Both the position numbers and the translations under genes were made by a program. From an uncultured bacterium (GTDB lineage: Bacteria > Desulfobacterota > WTBG01): a stretch of 9,749 nucleotides of DNA. The stretch spans positions 1 through 9,749 of the forward strand of contig CALJBY010000168.1 of the NCBI GenBank assembly GCA_938024025.1. The letters run 5' to 3'. The notes under the pieces were generated by a model. That model saw only the letters and a program-made list of their open reading frames with translations, was not told where the DNA came from and searched no databases. Below, one piece after another: positions 91-8,810 of this stretch. Each line of letters starts with the position of its first letter. The first letter of the stretch is position 1.

Positions 91-94
91 GGAG
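91..94 (+). promoter_or_regulatory. Ribosome binding site of the bilin-reductase-like gene
   Basis: GGAG lies six bases before the ATG at 101 and supports that start. The rest of 1-100 holds no gene I can support. One frame ends in TGA at 38-40 and another stays open to TAA at 118-120, so either could be the tail of an upstream gene, but too few codons are visible to choose. No convincing -35/-10 pair was seen. Confidence 0.6.
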
Positions 95-100
95 TGACCT

Positions 101-868
101 ATGGCCCGCGTGGACTATAAAAACATGATCCGGTTCAGGGATGAACTCGTTGAGAAGCATAAGATCTTCGAAGGCATGGAGCTTGTTCCCCTCGAGACGT
201 ATGAGGGTATGAATACCAGAGTGGTCTGGGAATTCAAAACTCCCATGATCGAAGGGTTCTATAAACCGTTTCAGGTCAGGGGGGATGATAAAATTGAAAA
301 GCTCCTTATTGGTGAACTGCACTATATGAAAAGGGCGATATACTGTTCTCTTGCCATTACGGTAAATGATGCGTATGATCTTCCCCTCCTTACCTGCGAA
401 TATGATCAGACTGCCCCCCGTATTACCGTTACCGTAGACTTCATGCCCGCAGTTGATATGAGTGTCCATCAAGAGTACCGGGAAAAGTATTATAGTGCTC
501 TTGCCGGCCTCTGGCGGCAGTACCGTACGATCGAGGGTCTCACCAAAGACGGCCGCTGTCTTCTGCAGAGAAGATATGGCCATGCACCCTGGGCCCGGGA
601 GACGCTTTCCTGTTACCTGCTTGACGGTAAGGTTGAAGAGGAAGAGGCAAGATACCAGGTGATAGAAGCAGCTGTTGCTTACATACGGGTATGGCTTGAT
701 CACTGGAGGAAAGCAGAACCCGTAGAGGACCCCGTGTATAAGCAGGAGATAGCGAAGCGGAGGAAGACGATTAAGGAATACTATTTAGCCCACTCCCCGG
801 GGGGAGAGATGCTTAAAAAACTTTTTGGTAAAGAAAAAAGTCATCTCATTGAAAGCCTGCTTTTTTAA
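101..868 (+). CDS. Ferredoxin-dependent bilin reductase (PcyA/PebA) family protein
   Basis: Probable member of the family that reduces biliverdin or related linear tetrapyrroles with electrons from ferredoxin, in the cytoplasm. At 255 aa it has the family's length. By eye it lines up with cyanobacterial PcyA: GEL at 71-73 matches the region of PcyA Glu76, YDLP at 92-95 matches the same four residues before PcyA Asp105, TVDFMP at 111-116 matches the following beta strand, and the C-terminus (LKKLFG at 238-243, ending LLF) matches the family's closing FG...LF signature. In this alignment Asp105 becomes Glu100 and His88 becomes Ser83, so the proton-donor set differs from true PcyA and the product cannot be predicted. 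The ATG at 101 follows a GGAG. The gene ends inside the ribosome site of the MFS gene, so the two are probably one transcript. No heme oxygenase, phycobiliprotein or phytochrome is in view. The family call comes from motif memory, not a search. Confidence 0.68.
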   Translation: MARVDYKNMIRFRDELVEKHKIFEGMELVPLETYEGMNTRVVWEFKTPMIEGFYKPFQVRGDDKIEKLLIGELHYMKRAIYCSLAITVNDAYDLPLLTCEYDQTAPRITVTVDFMPAVDMSVHQEYREKYYSALAGLWRQYRTIEGLTKDGRCLLQRRYGHAPWARETLSCYLLDGKVEEEEARYQVIEAAVAYIRVWLDHWRKAEPVEDPVYKQEIAKRRKTIKEYYLAHSPGGEMLKKLFGKEKSHLIESLLF

Positions 869-873
869 GGAGA
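867..873 (+). promoter_or_regulatory. Strong ribosome binding site that fixes the MFS start
   Basis: AAGGAGA sits five bases before the ATG at 879 and overlaps the TAA (866-868) of the preceding gene. This selects 879 over the in-frame ATG at 825, which lies inside the preceding gene and would add 18 residues of non-membrane sequence. It also suggests translational coupling. Confidence 0.75.
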
Positions 874-5038: not shown

Positions 5039-6645
5039 GTAGCTGGTCCTCCGGCAGAACCATCACGGCGGGGATCGGCAACCCCTATAAAACTGCCGTT
5101 ATCATTGAGGACCATTTGAACACATCCTAAATAGAAGGACATGGGTTCACGCACGTCAATGGTGAACCCGTGCTTTTCCAGTAATTCGAGAATGTCGTTA
5201 CGCATATGAGCGGCCTCGAGTGAAACTTTTCCATCATAGGAGCAGTGCATTCTCGGGGCAGCTACTGCATCGAAGGGGGATTGTTTTGCAAGGCGAATAA
5301 GCACCTGGGCTATGGTGGAAATAATACGTTCGCTTCCGGGTGAGCCGATAGCAAGCCAGGGCTTTCTGGAACGAAAAATAATAGTCGGGGCAACACTTGC
5401 CCACGGCACTCCATTAGGACGGAGATAATAGGGGTGGGCCATATCTTCATAGTCGAACGCAGACATGTAGTTATTGTAAAGGAAACCCAGTTCCGGGGTA
5501 AGCACTTTGGCGCCATAAACACGCTCAATGGATTGTGTGAGGGATACAACATTGCCTGCTTTATCCATTACCGAAAGGTGTGTTGTCTCCCCTCCACCCT
5601 TAATGCGAGTACGTATTTGCTCTGATACAAGCTTTGCATAATCTTTGCTCAGCATCCGTCGATCCTGCACCTGGGGATAGAAATTGGCATCAAAGGGACG
5701 GTCCCGACGGTCAAGTTGAGCACGCCTCATGATTTCGGCCAGTAGGAGTGCCCCTTGTGGAGTATCGGGGTTTCTGTCTTTTACTTGAAATTTTCGAATG
5801 ATATTTAATGTTTCAATTAATGGTCTCCCTGCACCCGGGGGAGGCATGGTATGGACAAACATATTTCCGAAACGGCTCGAAACCGGATCACGCTCTATAG
5901 GATAGGGAATCCGTGCCAGGTCATCCTTTTGGATAAAACCACCGTTTTTTTGCATATCCTCATGAATTAACTGGGCAACCTTACCACGGTAAAATGTTTT
6001 AATCCCCTTTTTGGCAAGGAGCTGCAGTGTATCAGCAAGCACAGGCTGTTTGAAGATCGTACCCACCGGGAATGGCCGCTCTCCATTACGAAGGAAGGTA
6101 CGCCCTGCACCTCTTTTTTTAAGGGCCTTGAGCTCTCTTCGCTGCAACCGGTTCTGTAGGGCACTGATCTCATAGCCTTCACGGGCACGATAAATGACAG
6201 GCTCCAGGACCTGTGACAGCTTAAAGGTGCCATATCGTTCGAGCACATACGCCAGGGTTGCCGGTGTGCTTGGCACTGTTGCAGCACTGTGTCCGGCAAT
6301 CCGGGATGATTTTTCAGTAAAAAAATCAATAACTGCCCTGTTAGGTGCCTTTGAGGATCCATCAACGGCAATAGTCTTATCAGCCTCCACACTATGGATG
6401 AGCATCATGGTTTGACCACCGAGCCCGGACGCCTGTGGCTCACAGACTCCAAGGGCAAAGGCGGCCGCAACTGCGGCATCTACTGCATTACCCCCCTGCT
6501 CGAGGATAGCGACACCAACTTCCGTAGCACGAAAATGAGCTGTTGCAACCATACCGTGTGGAGAAGCAGCAACGCGTTGTGGTTCCGGCAATCTGATCTC
6601 TGCCGGTTCAAAAAACTCGGTGTCTTGATCTGGCGGTTTCTTCAT
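5035..6645 (-). CDS. Gamma-glutamyltransferase-fold Ntn hydrolase with altered substrate pocket
   Basis: GGT family protein of 536 aa; such enzymes self-cleave into large and small subunits at a nucleophile Thr. The start of the small subunit is clear: GGETTHLSVMDKAGNVVSLT (351-370), with Thr354 as the expected nucleophile after cleavage behind Glu353. Other family marks are GGNAVDAAVAAAFALGVCEP (51-70), GLGG (74-77), MPPPGAGRP (267-275), NN at 391-392 and GSPGSERI (434-441). No signal peptide is visible, so it is probably cytoplasmic, unlike E. coli GGT. By eye alignment to E. coli GGT most gamma-glutamyl-binding residues are changed: Arg114 to Ser97, Asn411 to Glu373, Gln430 to Tyr393, Asp433 to Ala396 and Ser462 to Ala416, while Ser463 is kept as Ser417. 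A different amide or peptide substrate is therefore likely, as in cephalosporin-acylase-like relatives. The ATG at 6645 overlaps the TGA of the ligase-fusion gene (ATGA); only a weak AGGA lies upstream, consistent with coupling. Confidence 0.88.
   Translation of the reverse strand: MKKPPDQDTEFFEPAEIRLPEPQRVAASPHGMVATAHFRATEVGVAILEQGGNAVDAAVAAAFALGVCEPQASGLGGQTMMLIHSVEADKTIAVDGSSKAPNRAVIDFFTEKSSRIAGHSAATVPSTPATLAYVLERYGTFKLSQVLEPVIYRAREGYEISALQNRLQRRELKALKKRGAGRTFLRNGERPFPVGTIFKQPVLADTLQLLAKKGIKTFYRGKVAQLIHEDMQKNGGFIQKDDLARIPYPIERDPVSSRFGNMFVHTMPPPGAGRPLIETLNIIRKFQVKDRNPDTPQGALLLAEIMRRAQLDRRDRPFDANFYPQVQDRRMLSKDYAKLVSEQIRTRIKGGGETTHLSVMDKAGNVVSLTQSIERVYGAKVLTPELGFLYNNYMSAFDYEDMAHPYYLRPNGVPWASVAPTIIFRSRKPWLAIGSPGSERIISTIAQVLIRLAKQSPFDAVAAPRMHCSYDGKVSLEAAHMRNDILELLEKHGFTIDVREPMSFYLGCVQMVLNDNGSFIGVADPRRDGSAGGPAT
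5047..5052 (-). promoter_or_regulatory. Ribosome binding site of the FGase-like gene
   Basis: On the minus strand GGAGGA lies eight bases before the ATG at 5038-5036, inside the end of the GGT-like gene. With the ATGA overlap it supports coupled but efficient translation of the last cistron. Confidence 0.65.
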
Positions 6646-8810
6646 TTCTTATTATTCCTACCTGATGTAACATCCTGTGCTAAAAACTCTGCAGTAAGCA
6701 GTGTCCGTTGGATAAGGCTAATCCTGTTTACGGCTTCCTGAGGGGTATAGAGATCTTTTGATACAGGACCTATTCCACATAAAACAGAAATATCGTCCGG
6801 TACAAGGCCGGCCACCGATGGGACTACCGACGATTCCTCAGAAAGGGCTATTTCCCATTTCTGGGCAACACTGGCGAGGGGTTTTGAAAGCTGTAGGCTA
6901 TTACGACGTTCTTTCATAGGTGGACGGTCAGATATTCTTTCTAAATTCCATTTGAAGGTAGCCTGTTTAAATAATATCCTCATCTGTTCTTCAATTCCGT
7001 CAGCAAGCTTGGCATCATTATAACTTAAGACCAGGGTCGCTGTCACCTGATGTGGTAATAACATTGGAAAAGAGCTGGTTTTAATGTCAGTTACGGAGAG
7101 TGTGATACGGTCTTTTTTGGATGAAAGATTTGACAGTTCTGCAATTTTGTTGCTGAACCAGAGGATTACCTCAGGTGACTTTCTTTGCTGTCCTATGCGT
7201 TGCGGTTTCCCTTCAATAATGAGGTTGTATTTTCGCTGTCCTCTCCGTTTAACAATTACATTGTCACCCGGACTGCCCGGCCGTAACACCAGGACCCGTT
7301 CCGCTTTGGATGCTGCAGCTCGAATGATTTCGGCACTGTATCGGCAATCCCGTCCCTCATCAAGGTAATAGAGGACTCCTATGGGAAGCTGATGAAGCAA
7401 CCTGTTGTAACGTAACGACCGCAAAGCAAATTCGAGCATAACAAGTGGGGCCCGTGACACACCAATCCCCTCACCGTGGAGCCACTCGGGCTCTCTACGA
7501 AAGGGTTGGACAGGAACACCCGAGTCGAGAGGAACATCAATATGGCCAATGAAAAGTGTTCCCCCTTCAAATCCCGCATTGGTCTCCCAGGTCCAGGCAG
7601 ATCGGGTGTCGGTAAACTCCTTGACCAGTTTCATCTTCATTTCCTGCATGCGGTTGTCAAGCTGTGTTATGGCCATAGTATTACCGACTGGATCCGAGGT
7701 GCGACTCGAAAGGTGTGTCCACTCTTCCAACCGTTTCTCAATACGATCACGCCGTTCAGTTAAAAAGGAAAAGATGAGCGTCTGCGGGTCCTTTTCTCCT
7801 GCCTGAATCGTGGGAGGGGTTGGAGTGCCAAAATACCGGGAGCTTGCTACCTCTACAATCCTGTTAATGAGAGCAGGAAAATCAAGGCCGACCTTTTCTG
7901 CAGCAATGACATAGGAACCATGTTCTCCGAGGCTGGGCAGGCTGTTAATCTCAAGAACATAAAAGTTGCCTTCTGCATCAAGGCGCATATCTACCCGGGC
8001 TGTATCATAACAGCCGAGCGCAGTAAAAGCCTGTTTTGCTATCTCCTGTGCCTGGTGCGTTTGTTCTTCAGTGAGGGGAGCAGGGCAGAGCCACTCAATG
8101 GTACGACCGGACTTTCCTTTCTTATCCTCGATAGTGTAGATAGCGGGGCCACCCGAACCAAATACCATTTCACAGGGTGGTAGCGTTTCTGGTGGATTGT
8201 TGCCCAAAAGCCCAACATTGATTTCACGTCCTTCTATGTACCGCTCGACCAGGACAGGTTGATTAAATTTGTCAAAGATGACCTGAGCTGCCTTGCGAAG
8301 CTCTTCTTCATTGTTAACCACCTTAATACCCATCGACACCGCTTCATTTTTTGGTTTTACGATGAGGGGATAGGTAAGATCAGGGGATTCGAAATCCGGA
8401 TTGCTGAGAACAGCAAAGGGTGGTGTGGGAACACCATTTTGAATGAAGATCATTTTTGCAACAACCTTGTCCAGGGCAAGTGAATGGGCTAGGGGACCTG
8501 AACCCACATAGGGCACTCCCACCATCTCAAGAATGCCTGGCACATGGGTGTAACGGGCTTGCCCCTGGATACCATAGGAAAGGTTGAAGGCCATACCGGG
8601 ACGTTCTCCCTTGAGTACCCTGGGCATAAAATGTTCAAGATTATTAATAAGGTCTTTATCCCCTTCCAGTGCAGTAACCTGGTGCCCATATTTTTTTAGA
8701 CTGTCAACAATCCTTTTGATTGCTTGTTTACCATACTTTTCCCTGTTCGGCATACCAAAGAGGTTGATGACGCTTTGACTATCTCTGTTGTATATGACGG
8801 CGACTTTCAT
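6642..8810 (-). CDS. D-Ala-D-Ala-ligase-like ATP-grasp enzyme fused to a degenerate M20 peptidase-like domain
   Basis: A 722-aa fusion. Residues 1-325 form an ATP-grasp ligase like Ddl: YVGSGPLAHSLALDK (101-115), PLIVKPKNEAVSMGI (148-162), VLVERYIEGREINV (186-199), and ARVDMRLD (271-278) with LEINS (286-290), giving Asp274, Glu287 and Asn289 for Mg-ATP and Arg272 for the acceptor carboxylate. The usual N-terminal Glu (E. coli DdlB Glu15) has no equivalent, and Ser281 and Gly276 of DdlB become Gly298 and Ser293, so it may join something other than two D-alanines. After a linker (326-345), residues 346-712 resemble M20 peptidases: GHIDVP (422-427), HGEGIG (445-450), LDEGRDC (483-489), RPGSPGD (510-516) and a closing GIGPVSKDLYTPQEAV (679-694). 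His423, Asp425 and Glu485 remain, but the bridging Asp, second Glu (Gly486), Glu/Asp (Arg510) and last His (Tyr688) are lost, so zinc catalysis is doubtful. First gene of the coupled operon; no strong Shine-Dalgarno before the ATG. Confidence 0.85.
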   Translation of the reverse strand: MKVAVIYNRDSQSVINLFGMPNREKYGKQAIKRIVDSLKKYGHQVTALEGDKDLINNLEHFMPRVLKGERPGMAFNLSYGIQGQARYTHVPGILEMVGVPYVGSGPLAHSLALDKVVAKMIFIQNGVPTPPFAVLSNPDFESPDLTYPLIVKPKNEAVSMGIKVVNNEEELRKAAQVIFDKFNQPVLVERYIEGREINVGLLGNNPPETLPPCEMVFGSGGPAIYTIEDKKGKSGRTIEWLCPAPLTEEQTHQAQEIAKQAFTALGCYDTARVDMRLDAEGNFYVLEINSLPSLGEHGSYVIAAEKVGLDFPALINRIVEVASSRYFGTPTPPTIQAGEKDPQTLIFSFLTERRDRIEKRLEEWTHLSSRTSDPVGNTMAITQLDNRMQEMKMKLVKEFTDTRSAWTWETNAGFEGGTLFIGHIDVPLDSGVPVQPFRREPEWLHGEGIGVSRAPLVMLEFALRSLRYNRLLHQLPIGVLYYLDEGRDCRYSAEIIRAAASKAERVLVLRPGSPGDNVIVKRRGQRKYNLIIEGKPQRIGQQRKSPEVILWFSNKIAELSNLSSKKDRITLSVTDIKTSSFPMLLPHQVTATLVLSYNDAKLADGIEEQMRILFKQATFKWNLERISDRPPMKERRNSLQLSKPLASVAQKWEIALSEESSVVPSVAGLVPDDISVLCGIGPVSKDLYTPQEAVNRISLIQRTLLTAEFLAQDVTSGRNNKK

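Follow-up and report, generated by a model that had tools for sequence, protein, structure and literature searches.

A bilin-reductase-superfamily protein from an apparently anaerobic bacterial class with many family copies, predicted to be a ferredoxin-fed reductase of a hydrophobic substrate

In this work we followed up a gene at the start of a 9,749-nucleotide contig (CALJBY010000168.1; 'the window' below is this whole stretch) from an uncultured bacterium of the Desulfobacterota lineage WTBG01, whose 1.92-Mb assembly (GCA_938024025.1, here genome G000, with the window as contig C168) is 59.7% complete and holds nine matches to PF05996, the profile of ferredoxin-dependent bilin reductases (FDBRs). 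The gene, called W after the name coined here for its orthologue group, encodes a predicted FDBR-superfamily enzyme, likely fed by a [4Fe-4S] ferredoxin, that would reduce a double bond of a hydrophobic, possibly tetrapyrrole-derived, substrate that probably does not come from heme oxygenase; we put the probability of this reading at roughly 0.55. W belongs to a radiation of 6–18 FDBR-family open reading frames (ORFs) per genome in one bacterial class. The features of the window are summarized in Table 1.

The placement of W in the FDBR superfamily comes from both profile and fold. W scores 48.4 bits against PF05996 (curated cut-off 31), and a structure model built from 63 sequences has the alpha/beta/alpha sandwich of bilin reductases, so that the family and fold first proposed in a sequence-only reading of this DNA both hold; the YDLP motif which that reading placed ahead of the active-site strand is indeed there, at residues 92–95. 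The modelled folds of the FDBRs and of the SCP2-like protein discussed below are confident, the latter model being built from 40 sequences among 120 matches listed of 440 found. W also scores 25.8 bits against the RCCR profile PF06405 (cut-off 24.9), below its PF05996 score, and all 18 FDBR representatives of the class match PF05996 while two of the 18 match PF06405. RCCR chains appeared in some PDB profile searches, never among the best alignments listed, and RCCR identity is not favoured for W, in a comparison made by profiles and not directly with RCCR or Ca. Schekmanbacteria sequences; the presence of the latter in the RCCR outgroup is already published. W has no match to PF01218, the profile of the oxygen-requiring HemF/CPO family, at E-values up to 1, and the fold is common to both. 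A profile of 18 class FDBR sequences and one of five HemF-like sequences could be aligned over 173 columns (P 1.2e-4, probability 55%); these families are described as having no significant sequence similarity in section 7 of PMC13193486 and section 13 of PMC10151467.

Among 39 genomes, G000 and its relatives, PF05996 matches were found in 13, all of one class, with 6–17 each at E-values up to 0.001 and 145 in total. A six-frame recount gave 6–18 FDBR ORFs in each of 13 of the 17 genomes of this Thermodesulfobacteriota-type class, 153 altogether, and two more at the named-genome locus L038; the recount used our own profile on the stretches fetched around PF05996 places, includes fragments at contig ends, and counts at least one gene of genome G003 twice (pieces of W2, the partner of W described below, lying on two contigs whose overlap is 100% identical). 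It supersedes the result of a greedy gene caller, which overlooked some ORFs and gave 145, a count separate from the 145 profile matches. Among 395 genomes sampled from the phylum, 12 exceeded the PF05996 cut-off, all of the same class, and one genome outside the class had a sub-cut-off match of 19.4 bits. A single-sequence scan of named genomes returned nothing, unlike a later profile scan, which gave seven loci in metagenome-assembled genomes labelled Deltaproteobacteria, delta proteobacterium or Thermodesulfobacteriota and, for one, Epsilonproteobacteria; one isolate name among the seven indicates lake-type sediments. The Epsilonproteobacteria label (L038, QNFX01000094) is probably wrong, because the W2 in the W operon at this locus and the W2 of genome G001 share 98% identity. 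A phage origin of W was rejected, as no match was found in phage records. A protein 96% identical to W (P0012) is encoded on a contig of 62.5 kb. In a tree of 137 ORFs, from which eight of the gene caller's 145 were left out as shorter than 200 amino acids, W falls in a 100/100 clade of eight sequences, one per genome; the rest comprises a few unplaced ORFs and 16 further groups, whose names were coined here on the basis of the tree. One FDBR-family match in genome G015 (contig C171, 1700–2368), with three TGA and one TAA inside and a piece nearest to group A, looks like a decayed copy.

Markers of heme opening, light use and oxygen use were searched in the same genomes. The heme oxygenase family PF01126 was detected in none of the 39 genomes, compared with 3 of 14 control genomes, and HutW, the only other heme-opening family searched, was over its cut-off in none of the 17 class genomes. 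Anaerobic heme opening by ChuW/HutW was rejected on this count; sub-cut-off relatives are present in all 17 (up to 205.7 of the 400 bits required), and matches also occur in each of the 14 controls, a single one of which exceeds the cut-off. The phycobilisome/BBAG family PF00502, used as a proxy for bilin-binding globins, and the type II reaction centre PF00124 were also found in none of the 17 (type I reaction centres were not searched), in agreement with the apparently non-photosynthetic context proposed earlier. Heme-copper oxidase PF00115 was found in none of the 13 FDBR-positive class genomes versus two of the four FDBR-negative ones (one partial match; bd oxidase was not searched). Because completeness reaches 90% or more in eight of the 13 FDBR-positive genomes, absences common to these genomes weigh more than an absence in G000 alone. 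Judging from these undetected oxygen-use markers, the hosts are apparently anaerobic. The lack of a detected heme oxygenase of the usual family, the 6–18 copies and this apparent anaerobiosis suggest that W likely reduces another oily molecule, possibly one derived from chlorophyll or heme.

W orthologues lie in an operon with a second FDBR (W2), an SCP2-fold protein and a 2[4Fe-4S] ferredoxin, the ferredoxin gene being present at all six W loci that reach far enough. A further pointer to ferredoxin as the electron donor of FDBRs is provided by the Fd group (L078, 639–1622, and 10 relatives), in which 10 of 11 members have an N-terminal extension holding two CxxCxxCxxxC motifs; this extension is a ferredoxin domain in the one member scanned, and several Fd genes are followed by a group G FDBR. 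We propose that the operon ferredoxin would deliver electrons to W, that the SCP2-fold protein would pass it a lipophilic substrate, and that the MMPL, DUF1302 and DUF1329 proteins encoded at some W loci, together with the MFS protein of the window, may move this substrate across membranes. The SCP2 fold and the outer-membrane and MMPL genes point only to a lipophilic substrate. Tetrapyrroles are suggested by two observations: 11 of the 13 FDBR-positive class genomes carry HemF-like genes (1–5 matches per genome, including L201–L210), as against none of the four FDBR-negative ones, and four genomes have a gene for a BchE-like B12 radical SAM protein close to the K/K2 pair of FDBR genes. It was also observed that these HemF-like genes, which belong to the oxygen-dependent coproporphyrinogen oxidase family, occur in genomes with no detected heme-copper oxidase. 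The same ferredoxin-driven reductase could instead act on a steroid, terpenoid or polycyclic aromatic compound taken up and reduced by the class, a possibility that we take seriously while holding it to be somewhat improbable. The SCP2 fold would suit such a substrate, as would the MMPL, DUF1302, DUF1329, SDR, old-yellow-enzyme and aldehyde ferredoxin oxidoreductase genes around FDBR loci, and DUF1302 and DUF1329 proteins have been linked to monoterpene metabolism in Castellaniella (PMC6394551); however, the families named for this fold in section 7 of PMC13193486, FDBRs, RCCR and CPO, all act on tetrapyrroles, and HemF-like genes follow the presence of FDBRs in the class. By a modest margin, a lipophilic, tetrapyrrole-derived substrate is thus favoured over a steroid or terpenoid.

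W is also distinct from the characterized bilin reductases. It differs from PebA/PebB and HY2 by an identity of only about 20%, by the SCP2-fold and [4Fe-4S] ferredoxin neighbours in its orthologous operons, by the lack of a detected heme oxygenase and by its 6–18 relatives per genome. In a reference tree of 48 rows (up to three per group, with unplaced ORFs and two long-branch rows left out) and five PDB-derived references, a 95/91 branch separates PcyA, PebA, PEBB, HY2 and the class group A from W, in a tree that is unrooted, has long branches and is without RCCR or pre-PcyA sequences. A constraint joining PcyA and the W orthologue group in one clade was rejected (p-AU 3.8e-6), and one uniting the references alone was not (p 0.43). 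The sequence-only reading had taken W for an early 'pre-PcyA' branch. Pre-PcyA proteins of heterotrophs are already published (PMC10151467), with heme oxygenase, bilin-binding globin and V4R genes around pre-1 and pre-3, and a cluster of globin and B12-binding protein genes for pre-2. W resembles them in being an FDBR of non-photosynthetic bacteria and in lacking both His88 and Glu76, but its class is without detected heme oxygenase or PF00502 globin and apparently anaerobic, the grouping with PcyA is rejected, and V4R, present in four of the 17 class genomes, is found neither in G000 nor on any FDBR contig. We therefore abandoned the pre-PcyA assignment. That W might still be a true pre-PcyA-type biliverdin reductase, whose biliverdin would be imported or made by a heme-opening enzyme that escaped detection, appears very unlikely: its family, its fold, the Glu at the Asp105 column and the existence of active pre-PcyA enzymes in heterotrophs (PMC10151467, section 6) speak for it, while the rejected clade and the counts for PF01126 (0/39), PF00502 (0/17) and HutW over cut-off (0/17) speak against it.

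The catalytic residues of PcyA, Glu76, His88 and Asp105, are replaced in W by Gly71, Ser83 and Glu100. Glu100 is invariant in 66 W sequences and, by analogy with PcyA, may take part in protonation. Across the class, 96 of 152 readable FDBR ORFs (L038 included) have Asp or Glu at the Asp105 column and 56 do not, three more having gaps. There are 22 cases of two FDBR genes in tandem on one strand with less than 2.5 kb between them; in 21 of these pairs one member bears the acid and the other does not, and the only unmixed pair is a G-G pair within a G-G-Fd triple. The mixed pairs are W/W2 (nine), Fd/G (five), K2/K (five), B/H (one) and J/F (one), two members being assigned by position only and J being itself close to K and K2. 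No alternative acid was found at the His88 or Glu76 columns of W2, K2, G or H. The acid-less partner could be a substrate-binding or regulatory subunit, or a second-step enzyme, as PebB is after PebA; in the species of the window, either W would work independently of a partner or the partner would lie in the unassembled part of the genome. The K2/K pair is seen at L124 (5922–8882), with relatives in G003, G005, G012 and G015; in G010 an SCP2-like gene and two ferredoxin-type genes lie between the two FDBRs, and a third ferredoxin-type gene follows. That W and its paralogues are non-catalytic tetrapyrrole-binding or sensing proteins with a retained fold, as the 56 acid-less members and the lack of a ferredoxin gene beside the window copy might suggest, is the least credible explanation, given the invariance of Glu100 and the ferredoxins fused or adjacent to other copies.

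Several observations weigh against a ferredoxin-fed, partnered reductase of a tetrapyrrole-derived substrate. No ferredoxin, SCP2 or partner FDBR gene was seen in the window, where the contig starts 100 bp upstream of W in an incomplete genome, and a search of G000 with a W2 profile returned other FDBR paralogues only (the cut ORF on contig C9 is a group N member). MMPL, DUF1302 and YCF48 genes, whose labels come from scanning a single representative of each cluster against Pfam, lie downstream at four of the six W loci that reach far enough (G005, G011 and both in G014) and not downstream of W in G015 or L038, and they are as consistent with terpenes or steroids as with tetrapyrroles. Only four of 33 HemF-like places are on a contig with an FDBR place, and the one BchE-like protein scanned scores 212 bits, far under the family cut-off of 481. 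As orthologous pairs are not independent, the independent evidence for pairing is reduced to the five pair types; all five are mixed, which by our own arithmetic would occur in about 2% of cases by chance at the observed acid frequency. FDBR groups A, H and N are acid-less yet mostly unpaired, hence acid loss needs no partner; and because weak activity persists in pre-1 enzymes, from which all three PcyA residues are missing (PMC10151467), and acid-less FDBRs also occur unpaired, the latter cannot be called 'non-catalytic'.

In the window, W and the MFS transporter gene are likely on one transcript, because they are on the same strand with a gap of 10 bp; relatives of this transporter (cluster c32) lie 5–6 kb from W in two other genomes (L184, L136). 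Farther away, a 722-amino-acid protein (6642–8810, minus strand) has a D-Ala-D-Ala-ligase-type ATP-grasp domain and about 400 C-terminal residues without a Pfam match, and its gene overlaps in a run with gamma-glutamyltranspeptidase and N-formylglutamate amidohydrolase genes.

Table 1. Features of the window around W (aa, amino acids)
Feature	Position	Strand	Basis
GGAG, likely ribosome-binding site of W	91..94	+	sequence
W, FDBR-superfamily protein, orthologue group W, 255 aa	101..868	+	
YDLP codons, residues 92–95 of W, ahead of the active-site strand	374..385	+	
Glu100 codon of W, column of PcyA catalytic Asp105	398..400	+	Glu in 8/8 W rows
AAGGAG across the W stop codon, likely ribosome-binding site of the next gene	867..872	+	sequence
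MFS transporter, 439 aa	879..2198	+	PF07690, 8.9e-35

Among the papers listed by searches of an open-access library, judged by their titles and abstract openings, we found no description of bacteria that have multiple FDBR copies but no heme oxygenase, nor of tandem FDBR pairs with and without the acid or of SCP2-ferredoxin operons; section 7 of PMC13193486 mentions, with a supplementary tree, two new clades without characterized members, which may overlap with the radiation described here. According to section 13 of PMC10151467, known PcyA-related enzymes are all ultimately oxygen-dependent and FDBRs are proposed to postdate oxygenic photosynthesis (Rockwell et al., 2023). A tentative and rather unlikely extension of our model is that the FDBR fold radiated in oxygen-free bacteria as a ferredoxin-driven reductase toolkit acting on lipophilic tetrapyrroles released as chlorophyll and heme decay, in the form of two-subunit enzymes in which one FDBR has the acid and its tandem partner has lost it; cyanobacterial, algal and plant bilin reductases would then be one twig, and the origin of the fold need not coincide with that of oxygen. 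A class of apparent anaerobes whose genomes carry 6–18 FDBR ORFs each, and in which neither PF01126 heme oxygenase nor heme-copper oxidase was detected, makes this question of an oxygen-linked origin directly testable. The radiation would also give access to a so far unexplored group of C=C reductases that are likely ferredoxin-driven, and it might point to a route for the anaerobic breakdown of chlorophyll- and heme-derived pigments in sediments.
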